64,000 nucleotides of DNA from Balneola sp. (GTDB taxonomy: Bacteria; Bacteroidota; Rhodothermia; Balneolales; Balneolaceae), in NCBI GenBank assembly GCA_002696035.1, contig NZQV01000007.1, positions 124,001 through 188,000 on the forward strand. Reading direction: 5' to 3'. A model generated the notes under the pieces. It was not told where the DNA came from. It saw only the letters and a program-made list of their open reading frames with translations, and made no database searches. Numbering within the stretch: the stretch's first letter is position 1; each line of letters starts with the position of its first letter. Shown here in pieces: positions 18,093 through 45,687 of the stretch. Both the position numbers and the translations under genes were made by a program.

Positions 18093-18147
18093 TTCGATGT
18101 CTGTAATTCAATTTCACCCTTTTAAATACTCTTTTAGAATAAAATAT

Positions 18148-19476: not shown

Positions 19477-19478
19477 AA

Positions 19479-20210: not shown

Positions 20211-20368
20211 TTGTTTTACTTGGAATCATAGCTGTTCATTTACTGGTCATACTCAGAGCCAAGCAACCGATCCTGGAAAGAGTTCCTTTTGCCACAATAT
20301 TTTTTTTAACGGTACTAATGGTAACGTACGTCGTTTTCATGATGTATACCATGGTGCCTCCTGCGTGA
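20207..20368 (+). CDS. Small membrane protein between cpsD-like and wzy-like genes (53 aa)
   Basis: ATG 20207 overlaps the stop of the CpsD-like gene (ATGA), so it is translationally coupled. The product has two hydrophobic helices (residues ~2-16 and ~28-49) around a short basic loop (RAKQPILERV). It ends 13 bp before the polymerase gene. I know no family. The coupling and hydrophobicity make a real accessory subunit of the assembly machinery likely. Its length makes it easy to miss in automated annotation. Confidence 0.65.
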   Translation: MIVLLGIIAVHLLVILRAKQPILERVPFATIFFLTVLMVTYVVFMMYTMVPPA

Positions 20369-20381
20369 TGAGAGAAAAACT

Positions 20382-23433: not shown

Positions 23434-23441
23434 TTATAAAA

Positions 23442-26074: not shown

Positions 26075-26236
26075 AAAATGAACCAGGATAGAATGTGCAA
26101 ATATTACACTAAACCCTTGCTTAAAGATATAAATTGCACGTTCAGGTTAAAGAATTGAGAGAGAACTTAGTTTAAAACCTTCCATTGCATGTATGCTATG
26201 CAATGATCTGTAGAAATAAAATAATAACCGGTTGAA

Positions 26237-26253
26237 TGGCACACTTGTTGCAA
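26237..26253 (+). promoter_or_regulatory. Sigma-54 promoter of the deacetylase operon
   Basis: TGGCAC, 5 nt (ACTTG), TTGCAA, GG-to-GC spacing 12: a full consensus match. Predicted start near 26262. Upstream lies the inverted repeat CATTGCAT-7 nt-ATGCAATG (about 26186-26208), a candidate activator site. Confidence 0.85.
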
Positions 26254-26308
26254 ATACAAATGATTATAAAACAGTGTTTTGACAAGGTTGCTAACTGATA
26301 ACATATAT

Positions 26309-27190: not shown

Positions 27191-27199
27191 TAACACCTT

Positions 27200-28369: not shown

Positions 28370-28459
28370 AATCCTGAATAGTGATATCAGCATCTTTAAA
28401 AAGCCTAAAGAAAACATGAAGCATAAAAAATTTAAAAAACACCCGGTTGGGTAAACCCG

Positions 28460-29659
28460 ATGATCTTTATTGAAGTTATATTTTTAACCTTTTTTCTATT
28501 ATTGGGTCCGTTGTTAGGCTACCAGTTTTTTTTGAGCGTGGTGTCATTTTTTGCTAAAAAAAGGACCACTTTCAATTCGGAGCTAAACCGAAAGTTTGCT
28601 TTTATCATACCTGCTCACAACGAAGAAAAAATTATCTCAAAAACGATTTATAGCTTGTCTGGACTTATATATCCAAAAATAAATTATGATGTTTTCGTCA
28701 TAGCTGATAATTGCACAGATCAAACTGCCCAGATCGCAAGAACACTCGGAACCAACGTACTGGAACGTACGAATCCCGATCGCAAAGGGAAAGGATATGC
28801 GTTGAGATGGGCTTTTGATACGGTATTGTCACATAAGAAAAAATATGATGCATTAATTGTGGTGGATGCAGATAGCCTGGTATCAGGTAATTTTCTGGAA
28901 GTGATGAATGATTACCTTGATCGCGGTAGCCGGGTGATGCAATGCAGCGACCTGGTGTTGCCTGAACCTGGAAACTGGAGTGTGGAAGCTACACGTATCG
29001 GGTTTCTGCTATATAATTATGTAAAACCTCTCGGACGGAAAGTGCTCGGCTTAAATATGGGACTGAGAGGGAACGGCATGTGCTTCAGCGCTGATGTTCT
29101 GAAAGAAATTCCGTGGCAGGCCTGGTCGTTGACTGAAGATGTTGAGTACGGGCTCGTACTGTTATTGAAAGGGGAAAGAATCGATTTTGCTCCCGAGGCG
29201 GAAGTGTATGCACAGATGCCAATAGAAGCTTCAAATGCAGAAACACAACGCTCCCGTTGGGAGATTGGACGCTTTCAAATTATCAGATCCTATGCACCAA
29301 AGTTTTTCTATAAGGCCATAAGTAAAGGATCTTTGACTTATTTTGATGTATTCGTTGATCTGATCACTCCGCCGTTTGTGAATATGATGTTTATGGTAAC
29401 GATGATCTTTAGTGCCGGGCTTATTCTTTGGTTATTGGCACTATTACCTGTTATGCACTTGTTAATGTGGGGGGGCTTACTATCCACAGGAATATTTTAC
29501 TTGTTTATTGGACTGTATGTAGGGGGAGCTGATAAAGCACTTTACAAGTCATTGCTTCGACTGCCAAAGTATATTTTCTGGAAGCTAAAAGTATATGTTA
29601 AAGCCCTGTCAATAGGGAAAGAGGATAATTGGATCAGAACAACAAGGGATTCCAAATAA
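28460..29659 (+). CDS. Membrane glycosyltransferase, GT2 (beta-glycan synthase-like)
   Basis: The 399-aa protein has an N-terminal TM helix, a GT-A domain with FIIPAHNEEKIISKTIYSL, VVDADS (DxD), TEDVEYG (TED-type) and AETQRSRWEIGR (QxxRW motif of processive beta-glycan synthases), and C-terminal TM helices (~306-365). Its layout is like N-acetylglucosaminyltransferases of the PgaC type. It probably makes a beta-linkage or chain at the inner membrane. It follows the GT4-like gene by 90 bp. Confidence 0.88.
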   Translation: MIFIEVIFLTFFLLLGPLLGYQFFLSVVSFFAKKRTTFNSELNRKFAFIIPAHNEEKIISKTIYSLSGLIYPKINYDVFVIADNCTDQTAQIARTLGTNVLERTNPDRKGKGYALRWAFDTVLSHKKKYDALIVVDADSLVSGNFLEVMNDYLDRGSRVMQCSDLVLPEPGNWSVEATRIGFLLYNYVKPLGRKVLGLNMGLRGNGMCFSADVLKEIPWQAWSLTEDVEYGLVLLLKGERIDFAPEAEVYAQMPIEASNAETQRSRWEIGRFQIIRSYAPKFFYKAISKGSLTYFDVFVDLITPPFVNMMFMVTMIFSAGLILWLLALLPVMHLLMWGGLLSTGIFYLFIGLYVGGADKALYKSLLRLPKYIFWKLKVYVKALSIGKEDNWIRTTRDSK

Positions 29660-29777
29660 GATGGATTTACATAGGTGTAAGCGATAAGATTCAAGAACTA
29701 TAAAATTGAAATGTATCTTTGATCTTGTCGATTTTAAATGATTCAATATTTATGATTACGGCATTTAAAGATACAAC

Positions 29778-29858
29778 ATGCCTTATACCATCAACCAAAT
29801 AGCCAACCTGCTCCGTGAAGTTTTACAGCTTATGCAATTTGGCAGGAGAAACGTCTAA
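29778..29858 (+). pseudogene. Possible remnant ORF (26 aa)
   Basis: A short frame, MPYTINQIANLLREVLQLMQ and onward, lies ahead of the GH9 gene. Its first dozen residues look like the beginning of a MurF-like ligase, but the rest does not continue. It may be a decayed fragment or chance. Confidence 0.2.
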
Positions 29859-29881
29859 AAGTAATTGCTTTTAATAAAGTT

Positions 29882-31609
29882 ATGAAAAATATTCAGCTTT
29901 TAACTATTGTTATTTCCCTGGCTTTATTGAGTGGTTGCATTCGGTCTCCGGAAAATAAATTTATTGCTGTTAATCAGGTTGGCTACGAAATAGACAACCC
30001 CAAACAGGCCTTCTTAGTCAATGCAGAAGCCGATAGGTTTGAGCTGTTACGAGCAGAGGATTCAAGGGTGGTTTTTTCAGGTTTAATAAAAACACTTTCT
30101 GAAAAGGATACTGTTTCTGGTGATAAAATTTCGGTGATAGATTTCTCTGATTATCATTCAGAGGGTGAATATATGATCAAGACGGTTGGACCAAAACCTA
30201 TTGCATCAAACAAATTTCGCGTAAGTCAAAACGTATATGCTGATGCATTAAAAATCATGAGCAAAAGCTATTATTATCATCGGTGCGGAACTCAGGTAGG
30301 CGGTGAATCTGACTGGGGGTATGAAATCTGCCATTTGGAAGACGCACCTTTCTTTGATGCTCCGGAAAGTTCAAAAGATGTGACCGGGGGCTGGCACGAT
30401 GCGGGCGACTACAACAAGTTTACGGTGAATACTGCTTTGAGTGCCGGACTTCTGCTATATGCCTATGAATCTAATCCCGGTAATTTTTGGGACAACCAAT
30501 TGAGGATCCCTGAATCAGGCAACGGCATCCCTGACCTGATTGATGAGGTAAGCTGGGCGTTAGAATGGTTACTGAAAATGCAGCGTGATGACGGGGCTGT
30601 ATATCATAAAGTATCCCAGAATAAATGGGAGGGTGAGTATTTGCCACATACTGATCCTGCTACACGATATATTTTTGATATTAGCAGCGCCGCTACGGCA
30701 TCATTTACGGCTGCGACTGCAATCGGTTCTCGCCATTTGAAGAACTATAACCCGGATCTTTCTCAAAAGTTAAAGGTTGCCGCTGAACGTGCCTGGAACT
30801 GGCTGGAAGAAAACCCACAAAATGTTCCGACAGGTGGGTTTAAAAATCCTGAGGGTGTTACCGGTGGCGAATATGGTGATCCGTCGGACATTGATGAACG
30901 CCTCTGGGCAGTTATAGAACTATACTTGCTCACGAACAATGACAAGTACCTCTCATTTTTTATTGAACATTACAAAAAACTCTTTCAAGCAGGCATTCCA
31001 CCTATAAGCTGGCGTGATGCAAACAGCCTGGCATTGGATGCTTTTCTTCGATCGGAAACAAATGGGGAATATCAAAAAGAAATAGATGCTGTGAGAGAAG
31101 CAACCATTCTGCAGGCTGATACTATATTAGAAGCTCACAGTCATAATAAGTACCATAATTTGCTTCGTTATAATCAGTATTACTGGGGCTCAAACAGTGT
31201 AGGTCTTGCTTTAGCTTTCGATCTGATCCAAGCCTATAATATTGCCGGCCAAACAGAGTATAAAAATGCAGCACTCGATCAGCTTCACTTCATATTAGGA
31301 CGAAATCCTCTAAACCTATCACAAGTGACGGGTGTTGGTTCTGTTTCCGTGCAAAATCCATACCATCAGCTTTCTGAGATGGATGACGTCAATGCCCCTG
31401 TACCCGGAATGCTGGTGGGTGGACCAAACGATCATCTGCTATTGAACAACAAAAAGATCTCACCGTACCCATCAAAAAACTATGAAGATCTTTTCAAAAA
31501 CTACCTGGTAAATGAGCCTGCCATTAATTTCACTGCTATTCTAGTTTATGTAACCGGCGCTATCTCAACCCCAATAGATAAACCTAAGAATACCAACATT
31601 TCTAAATAG
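29882..31609 (+). CDS. Endoglucanase, GH9 lipoprotein
   Basis: Lipobox LSGC (Cys19). An N-terminal Ig-like CelD_N domain (~25-115; FIAVNQVGYEIDNPKQAFLV) precedes the GH9 catalytic barrel: GGWHDAGDYNKF (169-180) supplies Asp173/Asp176, and NEPAINFTAI near the end supplies the general-acid Glu545. LGRNPLNLSQVTGVG is also typical. GH9 enzymes cut beta-1,4-glucan; in EPS loci they often trim the polymer in the envelope. It follows the GT2 gene by 222 bp without a visible -24/-12 element. Confidence 0.92.
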   Translation: MKNIQLLTIVISLALLSGCIRSPENKFIAVNQVGYEIDNPKQAFLVNAEADRFELLRAEDSRVVFSGLIKTLSEKDTVSGDKISVIDFSDYHSEGEYMIKTVGPKPIASNKFRVSQNVYADALKIMSKSYYYHRCGTQVGGESDWGYEICHLEDAPFFDAPESSKDVTGGWHDAGDYNKFTVNTALSAGLLLYAYESNPGNFWDNQLRIPESGNGIPDLIDEVSWALEWLLKMQRDDGAVYHKVSQNKWEGEYLPHTDPATRYIFDISSAATASFTAATAIGSRHLKNYNPDLSQKLKVAAERAWNWLEENPQNVPTGGFKNPEGVTGGEYGDPSDIDERLWAVIELYLLTNNDKYLSFFIEHYKKLFQAGIPPISWRDANSLALDAFLRSETNGEYQKEIDAVREATILQADTILEAHSHNKYHNLLRYNQYYWGSNSVGLALAFDLIQAYNIAGQTEYKNAALDQLHFILGRNPLNLSQVTGVGSVSVQNPYHQLSEMDDVNAPVPGMLVGGPNDHLLLNNKKISPYPSKNYEDLFKNYLVNEPAINFTAILVYVTGAISTPIDKPKNTNISK

Positions 31610-31700
31610 GCATTGAGCATGATTTTTGATCCAACAATTATTCCATTCCATCTTTTTTTACTCCGAGGCTGGTTAAAAGTACTGAGCATAAAAAAAGAAG

Positions 31701-32741
31701 CTACTGATCTACTTTGAAGGCCCTATTTATTGCATTATAGTAAACGGTTCCCATAACAGAATAACCCATTTCATTTAAGTGCACACCATCATTTGAAAGG
31801 TGTATAGCTGGATCTAAAGCAGCTTCCATATCAGCCAGAATGATGAGATCGCCATTCGTTTTTCGGTCACTAATAATAGAGCGTATTTCGGCATTATATC
31901 GCTGAACCATAACAGCTCTATCTTTGATCGTCATGTCTGAACTTCCTACATTTTTTGGTGAAACGGGCGGGATTGTAGCAGCAAGGATGTAGGTTCCCGG
32001 CTCGGATGAGTTAAAAATACGATCAATCAGAGCATCCCACCGGGAAGCAATTTCGGGAGCAGTTTCATCAAAATACCAGGCAATATCATTGGTTCCCACC
32101 ATCAGGGCTACATATTTGGGGCTGTGTGTCTGCATCAGAGATTCTGCCTTATCTATGATGCCTTCGATCTTTATGCCACCCACACCCTCATGATCAGCAT
32201 CTGGGATAGAGCTTGTTTGATATTGATTGCCCACAAAATCCAGATCATGGCCATCATCAGTCAGTAAATTCCAAAGTTTTACTCTTGGGCGGGAATCGTT
32301 GGTCATACTGTCGCCCAATGGCATAATAACTAGTAATTGATCTAAAGGAGTAGCTGGGACTGAATGTTCTTCAATCTTATACATTAATTTAGCTTCAAGG
32401 GTCACATTATCGCTGTTAGTAATAGTGGCCTGAATTTTAAACTCTCCTGTCAGTTCCTCAGGTTGGCTTATCCTGAAGGAACCATCACTATAAGAGACAA
32501 CGGTGATTTGATGAACCTCACTGAAGAACTCTGTGTTTACAATCGGAGTTTTGCTGTCAAAGTAATCCAAAATATGGAAATCCTTGATTTGCCCTTTACT
32601 TCCTTTCAAGGTATCGGCAATTTGAATGATTGGGATAAGTGATTTTTCAACTGATGGTTCATTTGGCACATCAATTGGCTGAGTGCAACTCATAAAAATG
32701 AAGCATATAGAAATGCAGGACATAAGAATATATTTAAACAT
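31701..32741 (-). CDS. SGNH-hydrolase lipoprotein (CE3-like esterase)
   Basis: Lipobox FMSC (Cys19). An N-terminal beta domain (~30-130) precedes a GDSL/SGNH hydrolase: GDSMT with Ser145, Gly188 (VGGIKI), Asn218 (GTNDI) and Asp318/His321 (NDGVHLNEMGY). The full Ser-Gly-Asn-His set is present. It probably removes O-acyl groups from the polymer outside the inner membrane. Last gene of the leftward decoration operon, 120 bp after the aminotransferase start. Confidence 0.88.
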   Translation of the reverse strand: MFKYILMSCISICFIFMSCTQPIDVPNEPSVEKSLIPIIQIADTLKGSKGQIKDFHILDYFDSKTPIVNTEFFSEVHQITVVSYSDGSFRISQPEELTGEFKIQATITNSDNVTLEAKLMYKIEEHSVPATPLDQLLVIMPLGDSMTNDSRPRVKLWNLLTDDGHDLDFVGNQYQTSSIPDADHEGVGGIKIEGIIDKAESLMQTHSPKYVALMVGTNDIAWYFDETAPEIASRWDALIDRIFNSSEPGTYILAATIPPVSPKNVGSSDMTIKDRAVMVQRYNAEIRSIISDRKTNGDLIILADMEAALDPAIHLSNDGVHLNEMGYSVMGTVYYNAINRAFKVDQ

Positions 32742-32861
32742 GATAGAGTTGCTTTATCTTAAAGAATGAAAGAACTCTGTATAATCAGGTAACTCAAAAT
32801 TTGTTCCATAAATTAAATTCTACAATTCAGGAAAATTGACAGGTGTTGTATAAGACTAAGA

Positions 32862-33995
32862 TCACGGCGATAAGATATTCAGGCAGTCAACCATGCTTTT
32901 CAATTGTGCTGGAGCTATATACTTATGTACAGGCAGCTCCAACAGTCCATATTTAAGTTTTTCGGCTTGTTGGAATCCCTTCTTCCCAAATGGTGCTTCC
33001 GGCCAGCCAATGTAGCAGACCACACCAGCATTTCGCAAAGCTTGTTGTACTTGCTCACGCATGTTGGCGGGGATAAGAACAGGCATGCTAAAGGGGGTGA
33101 AGCCCTTATTTAGTGAATAAGCATTCGTCTTTTCTTTGGTAGCATAACGTTTAATCCCCAGGGGCTGAATAAATGAATGATTCCGAATTCCGTTAAGTAA
33201 ATACAAGAAGTTCTCGCGCCTTTTATTTACCAATTTATCTACATCAAGTAATTTGCAATACCATTCGGAAAATCGGTCCATTATTTTCACATGTACAACA
33301 TGGTTTCCTGATAAATCAATATATCCGGTACCTGGTAATGATAATTTTCGAAATGGATTATATCCGTTCAAAGCGTTGTTAATGGTAAATTTTAGCCGGG
33401 ATCCAGCCAAATGATAAGCCATGAAAGAACTACTCACTCGCTTTGTATCTGAAGGTTTAAATTTCCAAGGTTGTGAATTTAAGACCAAAACGCCGCCGCA
33501 ATGAAATTGCATCATCTTTCTGGTACTGAACAATGTAAAATCACCTGTGGAGCCAAGCTGTTTGTCCTTGTAATACCCGTTTATACTGTGGGCACAATCC
33601 TCAATAAGAAATATGCCAGCTCGTTCTGTTAAGTCTTTTAATGGCTGTAAATCCACGGGAACCCCGAAGAAGTGAACGGCAAAGATGGCTTGTGTCTGAT
33701 CATCTATCAAACTGCCGATTTCATTCGGGTCAATATTAAAATCTGTAGGAACATCGTAAAATTTAGGTTCAAATCCTGCAGCAAGGATAAACCGGTACAG
33801 CTTGGCCGGTATATAGACCGGCATAACAATATTCGGTTTTTTCTTTGGACGGTTCTTTTGTATCCAAATCATTACATCATAGAAGGCATGTGCTGCATTA
33901 CCATAAAAATGGGATTTTCCTTCAAATTGATCCAGATATTGACGAAATGATACAGTCGGAACCGATTCTTCTGAATACCCTGTAGTTTCTTTCAT
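32862..33995 (-). CDS. DegT/DnrJ/EryC1-type PLP aminotransferase
   Basis: The 377-aa protein has the PLP-binding Asp in IEDCAHSI (Asp133) and the Schiff-base lysine in FSTRKMMQFHCGG (Lys160), as in sugar aminotransferases of the DegT family. The N-terminal region (~1-60) is diverged. It would make an amino sugar that the formyltransferase or the acyltransferases could then modify. It overlaps the preceding acyltransferase gene as ATGA. Confidence 0.85.
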   Translation of the reverse strand: MKETTGYSEESVPTVSFRQYLDQFEGKSHFYGNAAHAFYDVMIWIQKNRPKKKPNIVMPVYIPAKLYRFILAAGFEPKFYDVPTDFNIDPNEIGSLIDDQTQAIFAVHFFGVPVDLQPLKDLTERAGIFLIEDCAHSINGYYKDKQLGSTGDFTLFSTRKMMQFHCGGVLVLNSQPWKFKPSDTKRVSSSFMAYHLAGSRLKFTINNALNGYNPFRKLSLPGTGYIDLSGNHVVHVKIMDRFSEWYCKLLDVDKLVNKRRENFLYLLNGIRNHSFIQPLGIKRYATKEKTNAYSLNKGFTPFSMPVLIPANMREQVQQALRNAGVVCYIGWPEAPFGKKGFQQAEKLKYGLLELPVHKYIAPAQLKSMVDCLNILSP

Positions 33996-35380
33996 TTATG
34001 TGATCTCTGTTCAATACGCTCATGCAGAAGGTGTATGTAATCACTTAATCCGGAGTTAAATGACTTATCTTCAAATAGGTATTTAAGATGTAATCTTTCG
34101 TTCCTGATGTATTTAACCACATTCATTGAACTCTTTATTAGTCTGGGTAACAACCTTCCGTTTTTATAGTCAGGACACAAGGTGATTTTTTGGTTTTGTT
34201 TGATCTCGGTAGCCAATCTTAATTTAAATTCTTCCGCTCCGCGCAGCATATCAAAAACCTTAACCCCATCATTAATAGCTTCATGTAATCTTGCGTATAG
34301 CAGTACATTTCCCGGTCCCTGCTTTATATATTGTGATTCTTCGTCCATGCCCCGATGCATAAGGGATATTCTATTTTTATAGGTTATGCATACATCAATA
34401 GCTACATATTTTGCGTTTTCTTCTTCCGGAATGGCCACATTAACCTCTATCCAGTTTTTCTCATAAAATGATTGAGCGATTTCCATAAAAAAATCACGCA
34501 TCCTTTTTTCCGAAAATGTACCTGAGAACCCCCGGTCATTCCATTGCTGCTGATGCATTCGAATAAAGTCTGTCAATACTACGGGCAATTCGATGGGGTC
34601 TTTTATTTTATCGATCTTAAAAGCATTAGGGTTTCCTGTTTCTGACCGTTTAAAATAACGCCGGGCATGATACCGGGCTTTTTTGGGCAAAGATTTCAAA
34701 TATTCATCCCAAGTAGAATCCAGCATTATTACCGGACTTGAAGACGCCTTTTCCATTATGCAGTTCAGTTCCTGATCACCCGATGCAATAAGTGGGAGCA
34801 ATGTATTGAGTATGTCGCTTTTTTTGGGAACTTCATCCAAAATGATCTCATCATAAACCGAATTGATGTCATTGAAATGCTGAAGGAATGATTGATAGAA
34901 TATTTGCTCACACCCTGGGCGAATTATACAATCCAGGTAATCTGAATAGGAGATGGAGCCTAACAATGGTTCGCCTTCCGGTTGACTTACATAAGATCCC
35001 AGGAATCTTAAACAGGTATAAACTTTGTGGCCAAAGAGGGTTACGGTGTCTTCAAAGAGGGGAGCGATACCTATTAGTTTGTTTTCTGTATAAACTGTAA
35101 GAATATGCAGTTTTTTGTTAGCTCCAAAATGCTTCCACCATACCTGATTCCATTCAAAAGTTTGGAAAATTTGAGTGTTAGCTTCCATTACCAACTCTTG
35201 CCACTCCTTTTCTAAGGTTTCAAAATCTTCGATGTGGGTGATGATTCTGATTTCAGTTTGGCTACTGTCTGTCCTTCTACTAATATCATCTATTTGTGAT
35301 TGTTCAGATTCACCTGTTGTATAAGCTGATATTGAGGAGGTCTCATTGATTTCATTATGATCAATCAATTTTACTCCCAT
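33992..35380 (-). CDS. CelD-like GNAT acyltransferase (FemAB-like)
   Basis: The 462-aa protein is a paralogue of the gene at 24740: WQELVMEANTQIFQTFEWNQ, then YLKSLPKKARYHARRYFKRS and MHQQQWNDRGFSGTFSEKRM. An extra ~45-residue polar N-terminus is present. It has the Acetyltransf_6 layout. In the company of a carrier protein and an adenylating enzyme it is a candidate to move an aminoacyl group from carrier to sugar, as FemX-type enzymes do from aminoacyl-tRNA. That use is inference. Confidence 0.78.
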   Translation of the reverse strand: MGVKLIDHNEINETSSISAYTTGESEQSQIDDISRRTDSSQTEIRIITHIEDFETLEKEWQELVMEANTQIFQTFEWNQVWWKHFGANKKLHILTVYTENKLIGIAPLFEDTVTLFGHKVYTCLRFLGSYVSQPEGEPLLGSISYSDYLDCIIRPGCEQIFYQSFLQHFNDINSVYDEIILDEVPKKSDILNTLLPLIASGDQELNCIMEKASSSPVIMLDSTWDEYLKSLPKKARYHARRYFKRSETGNPNAFKIDKIKDPIELPVVLTDFIRMHQQQWNDRGFSGTFSEKRMRDFFMEIAQSFYEKNWIEVNVAIPEEENAKYVAIDVCITYKNRISLMHRGMDEESQYIKQGPGNVLLYARLHEAINDGVKVFDMLRGAEEFKLRLATEIKQNQKITLCPDYKNGRLLPRLIKSSMNVVKYIRNERLHLKYLFEDKSFNSGLSDYIHLLHERIEQRSHK

Positions 35381-35535
35381 TAAATCTTTGATAATGCAAT
35401 TTGTATGACATTATATTTCTACGTTGTATTTGTGGCAAAAGCCCTTGGAAAGAATTAAACATCTGAGGTTTAACCCGGAATTCAGATTCAGATAGTTTGT
35501 TAAAAGTGCTGAATTTTTCAGTCGTGGGAAATTCT

Positions 35536-36672
35536 TCAAAGAACCCATAGATCTCCTTCAAGTCGTGTTAAAAAAGCGTTGCCGGTTTGTATAGTATGTT
35601 TCAGTTCAAAATCGCTGCTATGTATTAAGGTCCACATCCTTGCCGGAACAGAAAAAGCTTTCCTGGTAAATGGGGTTTGTAGCTGGCTGGGCATCAGTCG
35701 TCCGGAAAGTTCCACGCCACCCTTGGAAAAAGCGTGCCAGGTTAGAGCATTAAATAATTCGGTTTCTTTACCCGGTATTGATACCGCCTGAATGACCTCA
35801 CAAACACCCTTTTTTTGAGCATAGTAGATAAACCAGCCAATGGGTTGATTATTCGGATCAAAGAGCGCGGCTTTATGCAGCGTTCCATATTTGGTTTCTC
35901 CCTCCAGCAGCTGGAACAAACTGTCAATATCTGTTAGATTGTATGTAGGAAAAAGGAGATAGAAAGGTTCTATTATTTCCAACAGAACGCTCATTAATTC
36001 TGTACTGAGTGGTATAATACCGTTAAAAGGTTTTTTTTGATAAAAGAGTGGGATCTTCAACCTCTCGGCGATCGAATCCATACTTGCCGCTACAAAGCGA
36101 AGGCTTTCACCCATCCGGTTTGGATACTGTTTTAACAAATGAATCGTGGCCAATGAAAGCGGTCGCAATGGGATTTTATAATAAAGACTTTCCCCTGTAA
36201 CGAATTCTCCGCCAAGCCGTTTCCATAACTCCATTGTAGAATCAGCAGAACCGTCAGAAAGAGAGATATCCTGAGGGCCGGAAAGAAAATGTTGGAGTAA
36301 TCTCATCGGCATAAGTTGCTTTCTTCCATCCTCCGTTGCCATTAAATGATGGCAATTAGCCATGGTGATCATTCTGTTTTTGTATTGGAATGATTTTGTG
36401 ATGATACCTAAAAAGCCATTGATATCTCCATTTGCTGATCGGCTGACAATGGGTTTGACATGCGGGAGAAGCTCTCCGTCTTTGAAATAGAGCTGAGCAG
36501 TCCTCTTTTTTAGAGTTTGAAAGGAAGACTCCTTGCTGCCAGGAAAGTATAAACGAGAGAGTTCTACTACGGAATCGATATCATCTGTAGTTAGCAGCGT
36601 AATTGGGGGATTCTCTTGTTTTAAAATTCCTTGGTGTTTATAGGTGCCGGCCAAATTTAGATCTGGATCCAT
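35536..36672 (-). CDS. GNAT-fold acyltransferase-like protein
   Basis: The 378-aa protein has a GNAT domain at ~22-170 (LTTDDIDSVVELSRLYFPGS; NGFLGIITKSFQYKNRMITM; LMPMRLLQHFLSG; SADSTMELWKRLGGEFVTGE) and a second GNAT-like half (~265-370, IGWFIYY). Such bilobal proteins act in acyl transfer to sugars or peptides. It follows the carrier-protein gene by 72 bp, so it is in the same operon. Substrate unknown. Confidence 0.7.
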   Translation of the reverse strand: MDPDLNLAGTYKHQGILKQENPPITLLTTDDIDSVVELSRLYFPGSKESSFQTLKKRTAQLYFKDGELLPHVKPIVSRSANGDINGFLGIITKSFQYKNRMITMANCHHLMATEDGRKQLMPMRLLQHFLSGPQDISLSDGSADSTMELWKRLGGEFVTGESLYYKIPLRPLSLATIHLLKQYPNRMGESLRFVAASMDSIAERLKIPLFYQKKPFNGIIPLSTELMSVLLEIIEPFYLLFPTYNLTDIDSLFQLLEGETKYGTLHKAALFDPNNQPIGWFIYYAQKKGVCEVIQAVSIPGKETELFNALTWHAFSKGGVELSGRLMPSQLQTPFTRKAFSVPARMWTLIHSSDFELKHTIQTGNAFLTRLEGDLWVL

Positions 36673-36744
36673 TATATCGGGTATGATTGTTCATAATAGC
36701 TTAAAGTAAACCGGGCTTCTCTCTTGCCTCGGACAAAAAAGGGA

Positions 36745-37020
36745 TCAGCTGCCCACACTAACAGATAAAGGTACAGGTAGTGAAAGTCGTGTGATCATCG
36801 CAGTCATCGCCTTCACTGATCTATAATCCTCAAAATCGATTTCTTCAGGCTCAATCCTGATATTGAATTCATTTTCCAAGGCTACCATCAATTGTATAAG
36901 TGATAGTGAATCAAGTACTCCGGTGTCGATCAGGTCTTCTTCAAATGCGATCGTTTCAAGGGTTAATGTCTTGCAGACAGTGGATGTGACTTTTATTTGG
37001 ATGGGCTGTTGCTGCTTCAT
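36745..37020 (-). CDS. Stand-alone acyl/peptidyl carrier protein (DltC-like)
   Basis: The 91-aa protein has the phosphopantetheine site GVLDSLSLIQL with Ser38 and an acidic helix before it. Its size and sequence resemble DltC and discrete PCPs more than fatty-acid ACPs. It sits 43 bp after the adenylation gene, which should load it. Residues 80-91 are a Ser/Val/Pro tail. Confidence 0.9.
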   Translation of the reverse strand: MKQQQPIQIKVTSTVCKTLTLETIAFEEDLIDTGVLDSLSLIQLMVALENEFNIRIEPEEIDFEDYRSVKAMTAMITRLSLPVPLSVSVGS

Positions 37021-37063
37021 ACTTGTATAATGATTTTTGGGATGTGTTTACACCAAACTAATT

Positions 37064-38665
37064 TTATTGCGGTCTTGGCTTTTGCTGAAACTGATCGGAT
37101 AATATTTTCCGGTCAATTTTACCATTACCGTTTCTTGGAAGGAGGTCATATTCCTGCCAAACCTGAGGCATCATATAGGAAGGTATTTTGTCCTTTAACT
37201 TTTGTTTGAGAAGGGGGGCAAGAACACCATTCTTCATTGAAGTGCCTACATAAGCACATCCAATGGCTGTGCCATCAAATCCATCTATATGAACCGGGAC
37301 CACTGCGTATTCCCTGAGCATTTCGTCTTGTCCGAGGGCAGCCTCTATTTCACCAAGTTCGATGCGATACCCTCTGCTTTTAATTTGATAGTCAGATCTT
37401 CCGTGAAAGTAGATCAGCCCGTCTTTGCCAAGTGAGGCTAGGTCTCCTGTTTTATATATCCTTTCGCGTCTCCCTTCTACGTTAGTGTATCTAAAAAATG
37501 CGGCTTTTGTTTTATCAATGTCTTGCCAGTACCCCGGGCTTAAACCGCTCCCTTCAATATAAAGATCACCCACTTCTCCGATCTTTTTTTGACAAAGATC
37601 TTTATCCAGAACCAATAGCTTTTCGTTTGAACAAGGCTCTCCAATCGGAATTTCGGTGAGATTGTCGGGATGTTCCCTTACTGTATAATAACTGCTTGCT
37701 ATCGTTGCCTCTGTGGGGCCGTAGAGGTTGGTGAATTGAACATCAGGAAGGTTTCTCATCCAATATTGTAAAGCAGGAACCGGGAAAACTTCACCGCACC
37801 AGATCAACCGCTTCAGGTCAGGATAGCCTCCCTTGGGTACAACCTGAAACTTTGCAAGATAACTGAGCGCAGAGGGCACGGAAAACCACTGATTCAGTTT
37901 GTTTTCGAGAATGAACGCAGATAATTTTTTCGGATCAGTGCTAATGCCAGCCGGCACCAAATGAAGATGTGCACCTGAAGCAAAAGCACCGTAGATGTCA
38001 AATGTAGAGAGATCAAAATGAAGAGGAGAATGACAGGAGGTATGTTCACCTTGTTTCATATTGAAAAAAGGAACGGCCCAGTTTATAAAGGCTTCAATAT
38101 TCGCATGGGTAATGACAACCCCTTTCGGCTGTCCGGTTGAGCCAGATGTAAACAAAATATGAGCAGCCCTTGCCGGATTTCGTATTACCTGATAAGCTTC
38201 ATTTTTCTGGCTCTTTATATCTTTATAGATAAATTGTGGCGGGAAGTCATCTCCATGTAACAAAGATTCCGCTGACCACCATATCCAGGGAATTAAACCG
38301 GTTTCCGGGTCAGAATGTATAATATTCTGAAACTGATGAGTTGTATCATGATCAACAAAAAATAGAGAAGGTTTTGATGATTTGATGATCTTGGCTACTC
38401 TTTCTGTTGGGCTATGGGGGTCGAGCGGTACGTAGACACCACCTGCTTTTGTGATCCCAAGCATCGCGATGATAGTTTTTGGGGTCTTCTCCATAAACAA
38501 CCCTACACGATCACCAGGCGAAAGGTTATGTCTAATTAACATCCCCGCTAGTTTGTTACTCTCCGATTCAAGTTCTCCGTAGGTTATCTTCTCATCATTA
38601 AGAGAGACGGCAGTTTGATTCCCATTTATATGTGCCTGTTTTCTCGACCAATCGTAGATCATCAT
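37064..38665 (-). CDS. Stand-alone amino-acid adenylating enzyme (DltA/NRPS A-domain-like)
   Basis: The 533-aa protein has the A-domain core motifs: TSGSTGQPKG (173-182), NLYGPTEATIASS (313-325), YKTGDLA (404-410) and NGNGKIDRK with catalytic Lys516. Asp218 in HFDLSTFDIYG holds the alpha-amino group, so the substrate should be an amino acid. Cys290 in IWCGEVFPV matches the Cys of the DltA pocket (FCGEVLPV), which points to alanine or another small residue. It would adenylate that amino acid and load the carrier protein encoded next. It overlaps the monooxygenase gene as ATGA. Confidence 0.9.
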   Translation of the reverse strand: MMIYDWSRKQAHINGNQTAVSLNDEKITYGELESESNKLAGMLIRHNLSPGDRVGLFMEKTPKTIIAMLGITKAGGVYVPLDPHSPTERVAKIIKSSKPSLFFVDHDTTHQFQNIIHSDPETGLIPWIWWSAESLLHGDDFPPQFIYKDIKSQKNEAYQVIRNPARAAHILFTSGSTGQPKGVVITHANIEAFINWAVPFFNMKQGEHTSCHSPLHFDLSTFDIYGAFASGAHLHLVPAGISTDPKKLSAFILENKLNQWFSVPSALSYLAKFQVVPKGGYPDLKRLIWCGEVFPVPALQYWMRNLPDVQFTNLYGPTEATIASSYYTVREHPDNLTEIPIGEPCSNEKLLVLDKDLCQKKIGEVGDLYIEGSGLSPGYWQDIDKTKAAFFRYTNVEGRRERIYKTGDLASLGKDGLIYFHGRSDYQIKSRGYRIELGEIEAALGQDEMLREYAVVPVHIDGFDGTAIGCAYVGTSMKNGVLAPLLKQKLKDKIPSYMMPQVWQEYDLLPRNGNGKIDRKILSDQFQQKPRPQ

Positions 38666-39672
38666 GCTTTCACCATATAACTAGATGCATGTTCAAAGAC
38701 ATGAAGGGTAGTTTGTAAATCTATTTCTGAGACAGGGATGTCCAGAATGCAGGTCTTGCATCCGATTTGCAGGTAACCGGAAAGTTCCCGGGCTACTTCA
38801 TCAAAATCGCCTACAAGGTAAGGGCAGAAAGTATGATAATGCTTGAATGGGCCCAGCCAGTAGACTGATTCTTCACTGAGATCGTAACCGTTTTGCCCGG
38901 AGAGTGTCTTGTGCCATTCAGAATCAGAGGTTTTATGAGCCACCTGATGAGAGAGCTCACCAGATCGCGTATTTGGAAAACGAATAAGGGCATCACTCCA
39001 CGCTTTATCATGAGAATGCCGTGCTAGTATTCCTACCCGAATTCCTTTAATTCCATTTCCATTAGTTCTTCCCGATTTTGCATAATCGGCTGTGGGCTCG
39101 GGATACTCGATGAGTTTGGCCCCGAGTCGTACTGCCGTTTTTCGGGCCATATCTGAAGAGCCGGACAGATAATATGTGGGTTGTAAATGTTCCGGGAGTG
39201 TAGGTTGTAATTTTAAGTTCTTAATTACGTAGAATTCTCCCTCATAGGTAACGGCTTTTTTAGAGGTAAGTAGCAACTGTATAACTTCGGTATATTCGGC
39301 GAGACGTTCATAACGCTGGTCGTGAGGCGTGTGGTCTCCCATTGCTTTCAAGTCATTTACAAACCCACCGGCCACCAGGTTTAATGCGATCGGACGATCA
39401 TAGATCAATCCTATGGAAGCAATTTTTTTAGCCACCGTATAAGGATGCATATACATGGGCTGTAGGGCTATCATCGGCAAAAGATGATGTGTTTCAGTAA
39501 GTATGATGCCGGTGATCAACCACGGATCTGCCAGCCGGTTATCACTGTAAACAAGAATTCCTTTATATCCATATTTTTCAGTTTGCTTAGCAATTCTCTT
39601 CAGCTCTTTAAGAAACAAGTGCCGGTCAAATTCAACAGATTGTGGTGTAGTTGTAAACAGATCAATATCCAT
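38662..39672 (-). CDS. FMN-dependent luciferase-like monooxygenase (SsuD-like LLM)
   Basis: The 336-aa protein is a TIM-barrel LLM flavoprotein near the alkanesulfonate monooxygenase group: GILVYSDNRLADPWLITGII, then LPMIALQPMYMHPYTVAKKI and DRPIALNLVAGGFVNDLKAM. LLMs of this branch also occur in nonribosomal-peptide clusters, where they oxidise carrier-bound substrates. Being first and translationally coupled to the adenylation gene, it probably oxidises the activated amino acid or the amino sugar; a housekeeping sulfonate role is unlikely here. It needs a separate FMN reductase, which is not in the window. Confidence 0.88.
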   Translation of the reverse strand: MDIDLFTTTPQSVEFDRHLFLKELKRIAKQTEKYGYKGILVYSDNRLADPWLITGIILTETHHLLPMIALQPMYMHPYTVAKKIASIGLIYDRPIALNLVAGGFVNDLKAMGDHTPHDQRYERLAEYTEVIQLLLTSKKAVTYEGEFYVIKNLKLQPTLPEHLQPTYYLSGSSDMARKTAVRLGAKLIEYPEPTADYAKSGRTNGNGIKGIRVGILARHSHDKAWSDALIRFPNTRSGELSHQVAHKTSDSEWHKTLSGQNGYDLSEESVYWLGPFKHYHTFCPYLVGDFDEVARELSGYLQIGCKTCILDIPVSEIDLQTTLHVFEHASSYMVKA

Positions 39673-39852
39673 AGAGCTTATAAAATTGTTGGATCAAAGA
39701 AGATCAATTCATAAATAGAAGTAAACGAACTGAGGGTTTGATGCCGGTTCGAAAATTTCAAGCAAGCCTCTTTTTGAAAAGTTACACCCCTTGCTCAGAA
39801 GGATGTTTAGTTCGATCTGAAGGAATGAATGACTGCTTCTGTTTGAAGGCTA

Positions 39853-39870
39853 TTACAAAAGATGTGCCAA
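39853..39870 (-). promoter_or_regulatory. Putative sigma-54 promoter of the decoration operon
   Basis: On the minus strand: TTGGCAC, 5 nt (ATCTT), TTGTAA, with correct 12-bp GG-to-GT spacing. The -12 GC is GT, the same variant as before the wza-like operon. The predicted start near 39843 gives a ~170-nt leader to 39672. Reading outward on the other strand, the formyltransferase gene has no such element. Confidence 0.62.
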
Positions 39871-40114
39871 ACGTGATCAAGATTGTAAACAGTATAGAGA
39901 AGGCGTAAAACAAGTGTTATAGGAATGGTTTTGAAGGGATTCTTTATTTTTAACTGAGAGTTGATACCTAGGCAATATTACACAAGAAGAAAAGGGGGTG
40001 TGCAGAAAGTTCACACTTCAATTGAGTATCTTAGCAAGAGAATTTTCAGAGAGAACTGAATGGCTGCTGATTTTTTCAGCTAATTTAAAAACAACTTTTT
40101 CCCAGAATAATAAA

Positions 40115-41119
40115 ATGACCGCTACCCATCAGAAGAATGTTTTATTGGTTGTTGAAGAGGCTGCTGGAGCCCATGCACTTCGGTTGCTTTTGGAGAGCAA
40201 TCATATACTTGCGGGGGTTTTAACTTCTGGTAATTTACCTGATACTGCTAAATATCAAGATGAGTCATTAAAGGATGCCGATGCAAACACCAAGCCGCCA
40301 AATTCAAATATTGCTGCCAAAGCAAGTAGCTTAGGGATTCCGGTTTTTGATGCAAAAAAAGTACAGGATCCGGACTTTGCTAAATGGATGGGTGCCCATC
40401 AAATTGATGTTCTTTTGAACGTACATTCTTTGTATAGAATTTGCCCCGAAGTTGTGCACGCAGTACGCATTGGGGGCTTTAATCTTCACCCGGGGCCGTT
40501 GCCGGGTTATTCTGGGCTAAATGTGCCAAGCTGGGCGATTTATAATGAAGAGCCCACACATGCGGTTACGCTTCATTATATCACAGATAAAATAGATACC
40601 GGCCATATTGTATATGAAACCCAATTTCCTCTTACTGCAAAGGATACCGGATTAACTGTAAGCCTGAAGTGCGTGCAAAAGGGTCTGCAGCTGATCGAAC
40701 GTTTATTGAAGGAACTTAGCCGAGTTCCTTTTTATATGCCTTCTCAACCACAGGAACTAGGTGAACGTAGATTTTATAAAAGGTTTCAGATACCGGGAAA
40801 TGGGTTCATACAGTGGACCGATCCTGCTCATAAAATTGATGCCTTCATCAGGGCTTGCAATTACTCGCCATTTCCATCTCCCTGGGGGGAGCCGAAAACA
40901 AGATGGAGGGAAAGAAATATCTCGATCCTGAAGGCTGAAATAAGCAATAAAGTTTGTGATGATGCCCCGGGTACAGTTGGACCAATGGTGGATGGTAAAA
41001 CAGCCATTGCAACCGCTGATTATTGGGTGTTGATTGACAAATGTAAGGTGGATGGTGAGCCTTTTGTTGCAGCTTCTTTTTTGGCTCCCGGAGATAAGCT
41101 GATCGCTGAGAAAAACTAA
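40115..41119 (+). CDS. N10-formyl-THF formyltransferase (sugar/amino N-formyltransferase)
   Basis: Start ATG 40115 is preferred over GTG 39998, which adds 39 unlike residues. The 334-aa protein has the formyltransferase triad: Asn123 and His125 in FNLHPGPLPGYSG, and Asp161 in DKIDTG. The C-terminal part (~225-330) is the OB-like Formyl_trans_C region. It is Fmt-like, but its place beside the aminotransferase and carrier module points to N-formylation of an amino sugar or aminoacyl group, not of Met-tRNA. The start region is divergent from the monooxygenase operon. Confidence 0.85.
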   Translation: MTATHQKNVLLVVEEAAGAHALRLLLESNHILAGVLTSGNLPDTAKYQDESLKDADANTKPPNSNIAAKASSLGIPVFDAKKVQDPDFAKWMGAHQIDVLLNVHSLYRICPEVVHAVRIGGFNLHPGPLPGYSGLNVPSWAIYNEEPTHAVTLHYITDKIDTGHIVYETQFPLTAKDTGLTVSLKCVQKGLQLIERLLKELSRVPFYMPSQPQELGERRFYKRFQIPGNGFIQWTDPAHKIDAFIRACNYSPFPSPWGEPKTRWRERNISILKAEISNKVCDDAPGTVGPMVDGKTAIATADYWVLIDKCKVDGEPFVAASFLAPGDKLIAEKN

Positions 41120-41121
41120 TT

Positions 41122-41208
41122 ATGAGAGGAAACGCTGTTTTAGGCACTCTATTTGCTAGGGAGATGAAAAGTGCCATTTATAAACTATCGATCGGTAGCA
41201 ATCCATGA
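41122..41208 (+). CDS. Possible 28-aa leader peptide
   Basis: The frame begins two bases after the formyltransferase stop and its TGA overlaps the ATG of the acyltransferase (ATGA). It could couple translation of the two genes. There is no clear ribosome-binding site and no known family. Confidence 0.25.
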
Positions 41209-41780
41209 ATTACAAGAGAGACCTGTCTAAAATCTTTTCACGTTTACGTAAATATTCTATGTGGGAACATATAGCGGGACTTTGGCTTTCGCGCAAGTTT
41301 GACCGCAATGGCTACCTTATTGTTACCGGAGGCTGGCCTATGCCTAAAGTTATACATAAAGGCGGAACGCTGGTAGCCGGGAACTGCCAATTCTATTCCG
41401 GAGTTCGAATAGAGCTAGGCGCCAGGGCTACTCTGTTGATTGGAAACGGGAGTTATTTAAACCGGAATACGCTGATAGTATGTGAAGATCGGGTTGAGAT
41501 AGGGGAAAATTGCAAAATAGCCTGGGATGTGATCATCATGGATAGTGACCTCCATCCCATAAACGACAAATCGCCGATCGTTAACAAACCTGTACGTATA
41601 GGAGATGGTGTTTGGATCGGGTGCCGGTCCATTATCCTGAAAGGAGTTACGATCGGAGAAGGAGCAGTGATAGCAGCCGGCTCCGTAGTTACCAAAAACA
41701 TCCCGCCAAGAACGGTTTATGGAGGTTCTCCGGCAAAGCTCATTGCCAAATTGGATGCTTCCATACCAGTTCATGCCTGA
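41205..41780 (+). CDS. Hexapeptide-repeat O/N-acyltransferase (WbbJ-like)
   Basis: The 191-aa protein has a left-handed beta-helix of hexapeptide repeats from ~residue 50 ([75 protein letters not shown]). The loop His in DSDLHPIN is the general-base His of the family. It should acetylate a sugar using acetyl-CoA. A short ORF couples it to the formyltransferase gene. Confidence 0.9.
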
Positions 41781-42313: not shown

Positions 42314-42337
42314 AGCAATAAACAGAGGGTTTAAATT

Positions 42338-43279: not shown

Positions 43280-43298
43280 AACGAGAATTTCAAACATA

Positions 43299-43807: not shown

Positions 43808-44626
43808 ATGTATACCCATACAGAAAGTGAAGCCTACCCGGTTTTTGGAGTAAATATTTCAAGCTGTTCAAAGGAGGATTTCTTTGTGTCGGTGAATGAA
43901 AGATTACTGAATAGTGAAGAGGGACTAACCCCGTTATTTGTAGTCACCGTGAATCCAGAGATCGCAATTCAGTCTATAACCGACAATACCTACAGAACCA
44001 TACTACAATCATCGAATATCAATACGGCTGATGGAGTAGGAATTAGCTGGGCTGTAAAATATCTTTATAACAGATCGGTGGACCGGATTACTGGTTCTGA
44101 CTCACTTGAAAAAATATGTGCGGCGTGCACAACACTTGATCAATCCGTTTTCTTCTACGGTGCCGGGCCGGGTGTTGCAGATAAAGCTGCCTCAATACTT
44201 GTAACAAGAAATCCCGGATTGCGGGTAGAAGGGGTCTATGCTCCTGATTCTCCGGATATCTATTATGAAGACCTTCCTTTATCCACTCAAATTGAACTAA
44301 AACACTCCTCTGTAGTATTTGTGGCACTTGGTGCCCCATCTCAAGAGAAATGGATCTATGATAATATGCACCACCTAACCCGGTGTAGGTTGATCATTGG
44401 GATAGGAGGGAGTTTCGATTTTATTGCAGGAACTCAAAAACGAGCCCCTCTATTTTTAAGGAAGTCTGGACTGGAATGGATGTACCGCCTTTATAAAGAG
44501 CCTGCACGATGGCGCAGAATGCTACGGTTACCGCTGTTTGTGCTCAATATTTTACTTTTGAAAGCAAGTAATACCACCGCCCCAAAAAACAAATTGATCA
44601 ATGTGCCTAAAGAGGAGATCGCATGA
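43808..44626 (+). CDS. WecG/TagA/CpsF family glycosyltransferase (GT26)
   Basis: The 272-aa protein carries the family motifs VTVNPEIAI, NTADGVGISWA, YGAGPG, ALGAPSQEKWI, IGIGGSFDFIAG and GLEWMYRLYKEPARWRRM. Relatives add ManNAc(A) or another sugar to the lipid-linked first sugar, the second step of EPS or teichoic-acid linkage units. This fits a WecA-like initiator. It overlaps the epimerase gene as ATGA and is under a sigma-54 promoter. Confidence 0.92.
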   Translation: MYTHTESEAYPVFGVNISSCSKEDFFVSVNERLLNSEEGLTPLFVVTVNPEIAIQSITDNTYRTILQSSNINTADGVGISWAVKYLYNRSVDRITGSDSLEKICAACTTLDQSVFFYGAGPGVADKAASILVTRNPGLRVEGVYAPDSPDIYYEDLPLSTQIELKHSSVVFVALGAPSQEKWIYDNMHHLTRCRLIIGIGGSFDFIAGTQKRAPLFLRKSGLEWMYRLYKEPARWRRMLRLPLFVLNILLLKASNTTAPKNKLINVPKEEIA

Positions 44627-45687
44627 AAATATTAGTTACAGGGGCTGCTGGGTTTATTGGTTATCACCTTTGCAAAAGGCTTCTTGAGGACGGTATGGAA
44701 GTAATTGGGTTGGATAATCTGAACGATTATTACACCGTAAATTTAAAATATGCCCGGCTTGAATTATTAGGGGTAAAAAAAGATGCATTAAATTCATTGC
44801 AAGTGCTAACCAAAAGCGAAACATCCGATCAATTTTCTTTCCTGAAATGTGACCTTTGCGATGAATTCAGGCTTTCCCGTCTTTTTGAAGATCAGCAGTT
44901 TGATGTAGTAATAAATCTGGCAGCCCAGGCGGGAGTCAGATATAGCATCGAGAATCCCCGCGCCTATACGTCCTCAAATATCGAGGGGTTTTTAAACATT
45001 CTTGAAGGCTGTCGTCAAAACCCGGTAAGGCACCTTATCTTCGCTTCATCGAGTTCCGTTTATGGACTGAACACTGAGATGCCCTTCGAAACTGAGCACC
45101 GTACGGATCAACCTGCGAGCCTGTACGCAGCCACTAAAAAAGCTAATGAGCTAATGGCGCACACCTATGCTCATCTATACAATATTCCCTGTACAGGACT
45201 TCGATTTTTCACCGTTTATGGTCCTCTCGGAAGGCCCGATATGGCCTATTTTAAATTTGCGAATCTTATTATGGAAGGAAAACCAATTGACGTATACAAC
45301 CAAGGCAAAATGGGCCGTGATTTCACCTTCGTAGGCGATATTGTAGAAAGCCTGGTACGATTAATTCCCAAACCCATGAAAACCGGAAAGGGCATCTCGT
45401 ATCAATTGTTTAATATTGGAAATGGTGCTCCCGTATCGCTAATGGATTTCGTAACTATTCTGGAGAGGCTTCTGGGAAGATCCTCCCCCAAAAATATGCT
45501 CCCTATGCAGCCTGGTGATGTTGAAAAAACCTGGGCAAATGTTGATCAATTATACCAATACATTAACTATCGCCCGCAAGTAAATTTAGAACAGGGATTA
45601 GCTCATTTTGTGCATTGGTACAAAAATTACTACGGTTTTAGCGGGGTGAATTCAAAAGTTAAAGTAGAGGTAGTCAGAATTGAATAA
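44623..45687 (+). CDS. NAD-dependent nucleotide-sugar epimerase (UDP-glucuronate 4-epimerase-like)
   Basis: An extended SDR of 354 aa: NAD motif GAAGFIGYH (7-15), FASSSSVYG, catalytic Tyr and Lys in YAATKKANE, and TGLRFFTVYGPLGRPDMAYF, which is close to UDP-glucuronate 4-epimerases (CapI/WbnF-like). It should supply UDP-GalA or a related uronic acid, which would make the polymer acidic. The substrate is predicted from similarity. Confidence 0.88.
   Translation: MKILVTGAAGFIGYHLCKRLLEDGMEVIGLDNLNDYYTVNLKYARLELLGVKKDALNSLQVLTKSETSDQFSFLKCDLCDEFRLSRLFEDQQFDVVINLAAQAGVRYSIENPRAYTSSNIEGFLNILEGCRQNPVRHLIFASSSSVYGLNTEMPFETEHRTDQPASLYAATKKANELMAHTYAHLYNIPCTGLRFFTVYGPLGRPDMAYFKFANLIMEGKPIDVYNQGKMGRDFTFVGDIVESLVRLIPKPMKTGKGISYQLFNIGNGAPVSLMDFVTILERLLGRSSPKNMLPMQPGDVEKTWANVDQLYQYINYRPQVNLEQGLAHFVHWYKNYYGFSGVNSKVKVEVVRIE

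Follow-up and report, generated by a model that had tools for sequence, protein, structure and literature searches.

A split adenylation, carrier and monooxygenase cassette in a Balneola exopolysaccharide locus, possibly for aminoacyl decoration of the polymer

A cassette of four adjacent genes was found within an exopolysaccharide (EPS) locus on a 64,000-nt stretch of a Balneola sp. genome (the window, whose positions serve as coordinates throughout; genome G000, 3.97 Mb, 27 contigs, contig 11). The four genes encode a luciferase-like monooxygenase (LLM), a stand-alone amino-acid adenylation enzyme, a stand-alone carrier protein and a tandem-GNAT acyltransferase (GNATx), and a formyltransferase (FT) gene is divergent from them. 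Comparison of related loci indicates that the cassette is a real unit, conserved and coherent, for which we infer a function. On balance, we lean towards the view that the core is a nonribosomal peptide synthetase (NRPS)-type initiation module whose parts are separate proteins and whose dedicated role is decoration of the EPS. The core, FT and the region between them are as follows.

38662..39672, minus strand: LLM, an SsuD-fold FMN-type monooxygenase, core gene 1 (4-base overlap with the adenylation gene)
37064..38665, minus strand: stand-alone amino-acid adenylation enzyme, core gene 2 (TIGR01733)
36745..37020, minus strand: stand-alone carrier protein with a phosphopantetheine site, core gene 3 (PF00550)
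35536..36672, minus strand: GNATx, tandem-GNAT acyltransferase and candidate transferase, core gene 4 (AlphaFold2 and fold comparison)
39673..40114, no strand: divergent intergenic region between LLM and FT (no Rfam family at gathering score)
40115..41119, plus strand: FT, ArnA/Fmt-like formyltransferase, divergent (open reading frame listed from GTG 39998)

Results

The four-gene core recurs between EPS genes in relatives

Window proteins were compared by tblastn and blastp with homologous loci (L-numbers) of related genomes (G-numbers). Across these loci the conserved core was LLM, adenylation enzyme, carrier and GNATx, with FT divergent from it. LLM lies immediately upstream of the adenylation gene in 16/16 distinct loci, mostly with a stop/start overlap; this set has one count per genome and comprises the window, G021, G209, G343, G354, G048, G044, G039, G047, G056, G358, G359, G378, G379, G381 and the record JAIUMT010000032, in which LLM is cut by the contig end. 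The carrier gene lies downstream of the adenylation gene in 15/15 loci, G048 being excluded because its contig ends inside the adenylation gene. A small GNAT gene separates the two in G378, G379 and G381; in G010, which lacks LLM, the carrier gene is likewise downstream of the adenylation gene, with the small GNAT gene in between. The synteny search for adenylation-carrier-LLM-GNAT sets within Wzx/Wzy loci that a sequence-only reading of the window had proposed was run over these loci, and the core recurs between EPS genes: in all six other loci with both flanks (L021, L024, L025, L026, L062 and L064) it sits between the EPS glycosyltransferase gene GT2 and the side carrying FT, a hexapeptide acyltransferase (HEX) or WecG. 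Synteny of the whole core extends over three families of the order, and LLM with the adenylation gene also occurs in a fourth, where the contig ends. For the five genes compared, pN/pS was 0.14-0.44, with synonymous sites close to saturation. Together with the synteny across three families, these ratios indicate that conservation of the core exceeds chance.

The adenylation gene was detected (E<=1e-80) in 8/57 relatives including the window genome, in 0/9 genomes of the same genus, and at 78-81% identity in two other families. This patchy distribution and high identity suggest lateral transfer of the gene. It is also rare, being present in 5 of 296 genomes sampled from the phylum at E<=1e-110. 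A scan of named genomes for this single protein with exact peptide patterns, which reaches close relatives only, found a related gene in seven records (four Balneolales/Balneolaceae, one Rhodothermia and two Bacteroidetes).

Class-wide counts were made over 244 genomes, and are bound by shared ancestry and gene proximity and so are not independent trials. GNATx (E<=1e-10) and LLM (E<=1e-60) were each found in 15 genomes, FT (E<=1e-50) in 11, the small GNAT (E<=1e-20) in four and the EPS marker GT2 (E<=1e-90) in 22. All 11 FT genomes fall within the 15 LLM genomes, the LLM genomes that lack FT being G021, G378, G379 and G381. GNATx is present and FT absent in each of the four genomes with the small GNAT (G010, G378, G379 and G381). 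LLM or GNATx is present in 13/22 GT2 genomes and neither in the other nine (two of which, G355 and G009, are 62% and 83% complete), which makes the core an accessory of the EPS locus.

The adenylation enzyme and its carrier

Window proteins were assigned to families by Pfam and NCBIfam profile searches. The adenylation enzyme passes the amino-acid adenylation model TIGR01733 (367.7 bits against a cut-off of 317.4), so the family named in the earlier description as DltA/NRPS-like stands in part, the DltA portion being lost: the enzyme scores 318.2 bits against the TIGR01734 cut-off of 559.85, which rules out identity as a DltA D-alanine ligase. Identity as an exosortase A-associated AMP ligase is likewise rejected (TIGR03098, 217.9 against 592.35 bits). 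Asp218 (α-amine-binding, position 235) and Lys516 (position 517) are kept in 12/12 aligned proteins, seven of which come from cassette loci. By alignment the specificity code, in the standard position numbering, reads DLFFICLIAK. The code is identical in L066 and has one or two changes in the other five aligned cassette proteins. With the code nearly invariant even where overall identity is as low as 43-45%, cassette loci probably share one substrate. The best solved relatives in the pocket region are a prolyl-carrier ligase (E 4e-22) and then a D-alanine ligase (1.7e-16); the code combines DltA and prolyl-ligase features and indicates no particular residue. These features suggest a neutral α-amino acid as substrate. 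In the carrier, the serine of the GxLDS motif is invariant in 10/10 sequences, and the window genome has one match to the phosphopantetheinyl transferase (PPTase) family.

LLM and GNATx

LLM belongs to the PF00296 superfamily (E 1e-29), and its modelled fold is of the SsuD/SfnG type (Z 26.7 to 1nqk). The proposal of an SsuD-like monooxygenase thus stands for superfamily and fold and fails for membership of the SsuD alkanesulfonate family. LLM misses the SsuD equivalog cut-off (107.5 vs 518.2 bits), and in an alignment read by eye the equivalents of the SsuD residues His228, Cys54 and Arg297 are not retained; the His228 equivalent is Gly214, invariant in 10/10. The lost active-site residues and the missed cut-off exclude alkanesulfonate chemistry. 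LLM was also not placed in the MupA/Atu3671 family, as it is 18-20% identical to three such domains and the model is absent among the 14 NCBIfam families listed.

GNATx of the window gave no Pfam or NCBIfam match at E<=0.01 and no significant profile match in the PDB, and one of ten family members reaches NMT_C at E 0.0075. An AlphaFold2 model built on ten aligned sequences (mean pLDDT 79.5) resembles tandem GNAT proteins, with Z-scores of 19.0 to 3n7z, 17.8 to Eis and 17.5 to N-myristoyltransferase (NMT) at 9-13% identity, and GNATx is predicted to have this fold. The earlier identification of two GNAT-type acyltransferases is borne out by profile for one of them (PF13480, see below) and by its predicted tandem-GNAT fold for the other (35536-36672).

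FT and the flanking EPS genes

FT has the Formyl_trans N domain, and its catalytic Asn-His-Asp residues are invariant in 6/6 sequences. Its orthologues begin near ATG 40115, which is the likely start, so GTG 39998 is probably too early. It scores under the NCBIfam equivalog cut-offs of the sugar formyltransferases. The remaining genes on either side of the core are listed here.

31701..32741, minus strand: SGNH/GDSL esterase (Pfam/NCBIfam; not conserved with the core)
32862..33995, minus strand: DegT/DnrJ/EryC1-type aminotransferase (Pfam/NCBIfam; accessory pair with FemAB)
33992..35380, minus strand: FemAB/CelD-like GNAT, PF13480 (Pfam/NCBIfam; accessory pair with DegT)
41205..41780, plus strand: HEX, WbbJ-like hexapeptide acyltransferase on the EPS side (Pfam/NCBIfam)
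18097..31609, plus strand: EPS backbone with Wzz, kinase, Wzy, Wzx, glycosyltransferase, PF13480 GNAT, deacetylase, glycosyltransferase, GT2 and GH9 (syntenic in relatives)
43808..45687, plus strand: WecG/TagA glycosyltransferase and sugar-nucleotide epimerase on the other flank (syntenic in relatives)

All nine open reading frames (ORFs) first described exist at their positions and, save GNATx, match Pfam/NCBIfam families, and their placement inside an EPS locus is confirmed by export, Wzz, Wzy, Wzx and glycosyltransferase genes on one side and WecG/TagA with the epimerase on the other. One flank carries genes for Wza-like export, Wzz-like and kinase-like proteins, Wzy, Wzx, three glycosyltransferases, a deacetylase and a GH9 protein, and the locus is firmly a Wzx/Wzy-type EPS locus. 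Its XrtA-like Wzz and kinase score under the curated cut-offs. An Rfam scan of 30000-46200 returned nothing at gathering score.

The notion of a single leftward operon survives in its uniform strand, while locus comparison resolves it into the LLM-adenylation-carrier-GNATx core, the FemAB-DegT pair, which can be separated from it, and the SGNH gene, which is not conserved, and rules out a nine-gene operon as the unit. DegT and FemAB, once taken for obligate partners, are not: L086 and L087 carry homologues of the pair (30-31% and 43-44% identical) and lack the core, and no DegT is present on the GNATx side of seven intact loci (L017, L021, L024, L025, L026, L062 and L064). Likewise, the SGNH esterase was found in 0/28 other loci at E<=1e-5 (many of which end soon after GNATx, and some of which are the same genome twice), which gives no support to its inclusion in the pathway or in the decoration module. 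HEX, also assigned to the module at first, goes with the WecG side instead, being kept in both decayed loci described below and not found in L025 and L026. As a separate observation, the EPS loci L086 (same genus; 6443-7612 and 10653-11972) and L087 (same family; 7779-9095 and 12082-13323) have other genes in place of the core, namely those of a weakly AMP-ligase-like protein and a relative of the nucleotidyltransferase-like gene of L027, with the DegT and FemAB homologues.

In the decayed locus L063 (G342), an in-frame deletion removes an internal part of LLM, and neither carrier nor FT was found; the adenylation enzyme, GNATx, FemAB, DegT, HEX, WecG and the epimerase are retained. In L022, the adenylation gene is internally deleted with altered core motifs, LLM, carrier, GNATx and FT were not found, and FemAB, DegT, HEX, WecG and the epimerase are retained. 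These losses suggest that FT goes with LLM and carrier and that HEX does not. L022 and L063 are metagenome-type assemblies, in which assembly error may explain part of the losses; the altered motifs in L022 favour real decay.

Relatives in other phyla

Relatives outside the phylum were drawn from plasmid records alone. LLM relatives of 34-43% identity (18 records matched) lie beside AMP-binding, carrier, PPTase, halogenase, P450 or NRPS genes in 5/5 regions inspected, of which three are distinct and alphaproteobacterial and two are similar and from Streptomyces. The motif TFCPYLVG is common to all five and the window LLM. These neighbourhoods point to carrier-bound substrates. In L093-L097 the LLM family with this motif is found in NRPS-like clusters that also encode halogenase, P450 or acyl-CoA dehydrogenase, and none of the four scanned reached an NCBIfam cut-off.

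Among the plasmid relatives of FT, the best 8 of 85 matched records include three with an annotated MupA/Atu3671-family LLM; two of these were inspected (L098 and L100), as was another, L099. A single chain in Aliiroseovarius L098 and Ruegeria L100 comprises FT, an adenylation domain into which an LLM is inserted, and a carrier domain; in Ruegeria (6992-11662) it is surrounded by polyketide synthase (PKS), GT2, sugar transferase and VPLPA-CTERM protein genes. In Deinococcus L099 (7936-14321), a PF13480 GNAT, FT (39% identical to that of the window), a protein with adenylation domain (A), LLM and carrier, and a PKS are encoded in series beside capsule/polysaccharide genes. These FT-A(LLM)-carrier sets amount to a parallel assembly of the same functions. 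That FT, adenylation, LLM and carrier are fused or adjacent elsewhere supports a single pathway.

Discussion

The unit of adenylation enzyme, carrier, LLM and GNAT in an EPS locus, as originally proposed, is upheld, and FT probably belongs to it on the grounds of synteny, co-occurrence, co-loss and fused relatives; the product may end on the EPS. In the pathway that we favour, the adenylation enzyme, whose family is assigned by profile, would activate a neutral α-amino acid and load it onto the 4'-phosphopantetheine of the carrier. LLM would then oxidise the carrier-bound aminoacyl group, most likely by α-hydroxylation, a reaction with precedent among flavin monooxygenases that use carrier thioesters as substrates. 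Excerpts of one account report that flavin monooxygenase domains in NRPS modules α-hydroxylate glycyl thioesters and that a stand-alone enzyme does likewise for skyllamycin, with no statement there that they are luciferase-like (PMC10204066). MupA, a TIM-barrel flavin monooxygenase, is described in part of another as requiring an acyl carrier protein (ACP)-bound substrate (PMC10952193). The amine may be capped by FT, or by the small GNAT in other lineages, and formylation domains are reported to formylate a carrier-bound amino acid (PMC8949500). GNATx could take the acyl group off the carrier and attach it to an amino sugar in the EPS repeat, possibly a sugar that the PgaB-like deacetylase has freed, and FemAB and DegT might add a further, optional sugar modification.

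Several points weigh against this pathway. In G021 all four core genes are intact and both FT and the small GNAT are missing, and G010 has the adenylation gene, carrier and GNATx without LLM, so oxidation and capping are not obligatory. FT and the small GNAT track clades, and their mutual exclusivity represents few independent events; linkage alone can make neighbouring genes co-occur. The LLM inserted in the fused proteins is only 18-20% identical to that of the window, making it an analogue and not an orthologue, and the fusion in Aliiroseovarius has denitrification genes and NRPS/PKS genes as neighbours and no polysaccharide gene within the 14.8 kb inspected. FT is closer to sugar N-formyltransferases (ArnA, E 3e-20) than to the NRPS formylation domain of LgrA (1e-7), and may for that reason formylate a sugar. 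Finally, we infer the substrate, the reactions and the transfer to EPS alike.

The last but one of these points leads to a reading that we consider possible, though clearly the lesser, in which FT and HEX act on a sugar nucleotide to give an N-formyl or acetyl sugar, apart from an aminoacyl decoration by LLM-A-ACP-GNATx. It overlaps with the favoured pathway, the role of FT being the sole difference. After ArnA, the best solved matches of FT are nucleotide-amino-sugar formyltransferases; FT is divergent from the core and on the same strand as HEX, and G021 keeps the core without it. Against this, FT never occurred without LLM among the 244 genomes at the threshold used, was lost along with LLM and carrier in both decayed loci in which HEX was kept, and in other phyla is fused with A-LLM-carrier or adjacent to it.

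We regard it as improbable that the core makes a secreted small molecule, such as an N-acyl or formylated oxidised amino acid, merely co-regulated with the EPS. The LLM relatives in NRPS-like clusters would fit such a product, as would the XrtA-like Wzz and kinase of the locus, which fall under curated cut-offs; N-acyl amino acid synthase genes are reported next to PEP-CTERM/exosortase genes, and a putative stieleriacine cluster near PEP-CTERM and EPS genes (PMC7293339). However, no condensation domain or transporter family was found in the ten ORFs scanned at 31701-42313, and in each of the six other two-flank loci the core is enclosed by EPS genes.

Siderophores contain N-formyl and N-acetyl hydroxamates. 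The presence of FT in some loci and of a small acetyltransferase-like GNAT in others mirrors these groups, and LLM might oxidise the amine nitrogen and not the α-carbon, formyl or acetyl capping then giving a hydroxamate and a metal-binding polysaccharide. A stand-alone set of adenylation enzyme, carrier and flavin N-oxygenase is known in ChmGHIJ, yet ChmG belongs to the acyl-CoA dehydrogenase family and not to LLM, as far as excerpts of that work state (PMC10849742), and the flavin monooxygenase domains of NRPS modules are, in the part cited, reported as α-hydroxylases (PMC10204066). Moreover, G010 has the small GNAT without LLM. We consider this chemistry quite unlikely, and its extension, that many carrier-built N-formyl or N-acetyl N-hydroxy-aminoacyl groups made in siderophore-like chemistry through an LLM N-oxygenase turn the slime into a polymeric metal chelator, a long shot. 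D-alanylation of the EPS by a DltABCD-like system is highly improbable: the adenylation enzyme reaches 318 bits to DltA and has a cysteine at code position 301 in common, but this score lies far under the DltA cut-off, the pocket code differs at 5/9 positions compared, LLM belongs to the operon and no DltB-like (MBOAT) Pfam match was found in 30 window proteins scanned.

Among known systems, DltA and DltC are alike in that a stand-alone adenylation enzyme and carrier serve a cell-surface polymer; they differ in that the cassette enzyme is under the DltA cut-off and that Dlt has neither LLM nor FT and transfers by the membrane protein DltB. Acyl activation in polysaccharide loci is also represented by the tetronate carrier genes of Vibrio cholerae O1 and by the exosortase A-associated AMP ligase, from whose family the cassette enzyme is far removed by score. 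SsuD resembles LLM in fold, and LLM does not match its catalytic residues or cut-off. In NRPS modules whose adenylation domain contains a flavin monooxygenase domain (myxothiazol, melithiazol and solanimycin) and in MupA/Atu3671-type FT-A-LLM-carrier proteins, a flavin oxygenase acts on a carrier-bound amino acid, with FT in the same chain in two of the three fused or adjacent sets scanned; in contrast, the cassette parts are separate proteins in an EPS locus. Lincosamide synthetase, in the sections consulted as source, uses a stand-alone adenylation enzyme and a carrier (LmbC and the LmbN carrier domain), as does the cassette, to activate an amino acid, which is joined to an amino sugar by an amide bond (PMC4351081). 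Unlike the cassette, it makes an antibiotic and not a polymer, has further subunits (LmbE and LmbV) resembling mycothiol enzymes, and is described in those sections with no LLM, tandem GNAT or formyltransferase named (PMC4351081). Chalkophomycin ChmGHIJ also has a stand-alone adenylation enzyme, a carrier and a flavin oxygenase acting on the aminoacyl-carrier (excerpts of PMC10849742 and PMC11085572), whereas its oxygenase comes from another superfamily, its substrate is proline and its product is passed to an NRPS (excerpts of PMC10849742). The cassette is likened to lincosamide synthetase and ChmGHIJ and assigned to neither. In the open-licence PMC literature we found no paper joining LLM with adenylation, carrier or polysaccharide, a weak negative that covers open-licence papers only; the lincosamide and chalkophomycin papers did come up there, among others off the subject. 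The statement that no system with exactly this set has been described holds, as far as this search reaches, for the exact set in a polysaccharide locus; it must be restricted to that set because lincosamide synthetase and NRPS flavin monooxygenase domains are precedents for the general idea.

If the favoured pathway is correct, NRPS logic (adenylation, carrier tethering, on-carrier oxidation and amine capping) would make non-sugar decorations of EPS, and a new class of polymer substituents would have been overlooked by sugar-centred annotation. LLM-A-ACP-GNATx or FT-A(LLM)-carrier within polysaccharide loci would then be a search signature across phyla, and the tandem-GNAT family a candidate carrier-to-sugar transferase.

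Some further observations concern other loci and another part of the window. On a Pseudohalocynthiibacter plasmid (L061, 6383-10560), an adenylation enzyme, a carrier, an acyl-CoA dehydrogenase and a methyltransferase are encoded next to YjbF/YjbH and polysaccharide export genes; this other carrier-based set in an EPS locus perhaps makes a pyrrole-type acyl group. Sinorhizobium plasmids L059 and L060 (~9992-11110) encode distant GNATx relatives (~26% identity) and each a second, weaker GNATx-like ORF, with genes for a small methyltransferase, Wzz, an asparagine-synthase-like and an AMP-ligase-like protein nearby in L060. At 13222-15159 of the window, a single 645-aa ORF fuses a glycosyltransferase-4 (WecA/MraY-like) domain with a CoA_binding_3 domain.

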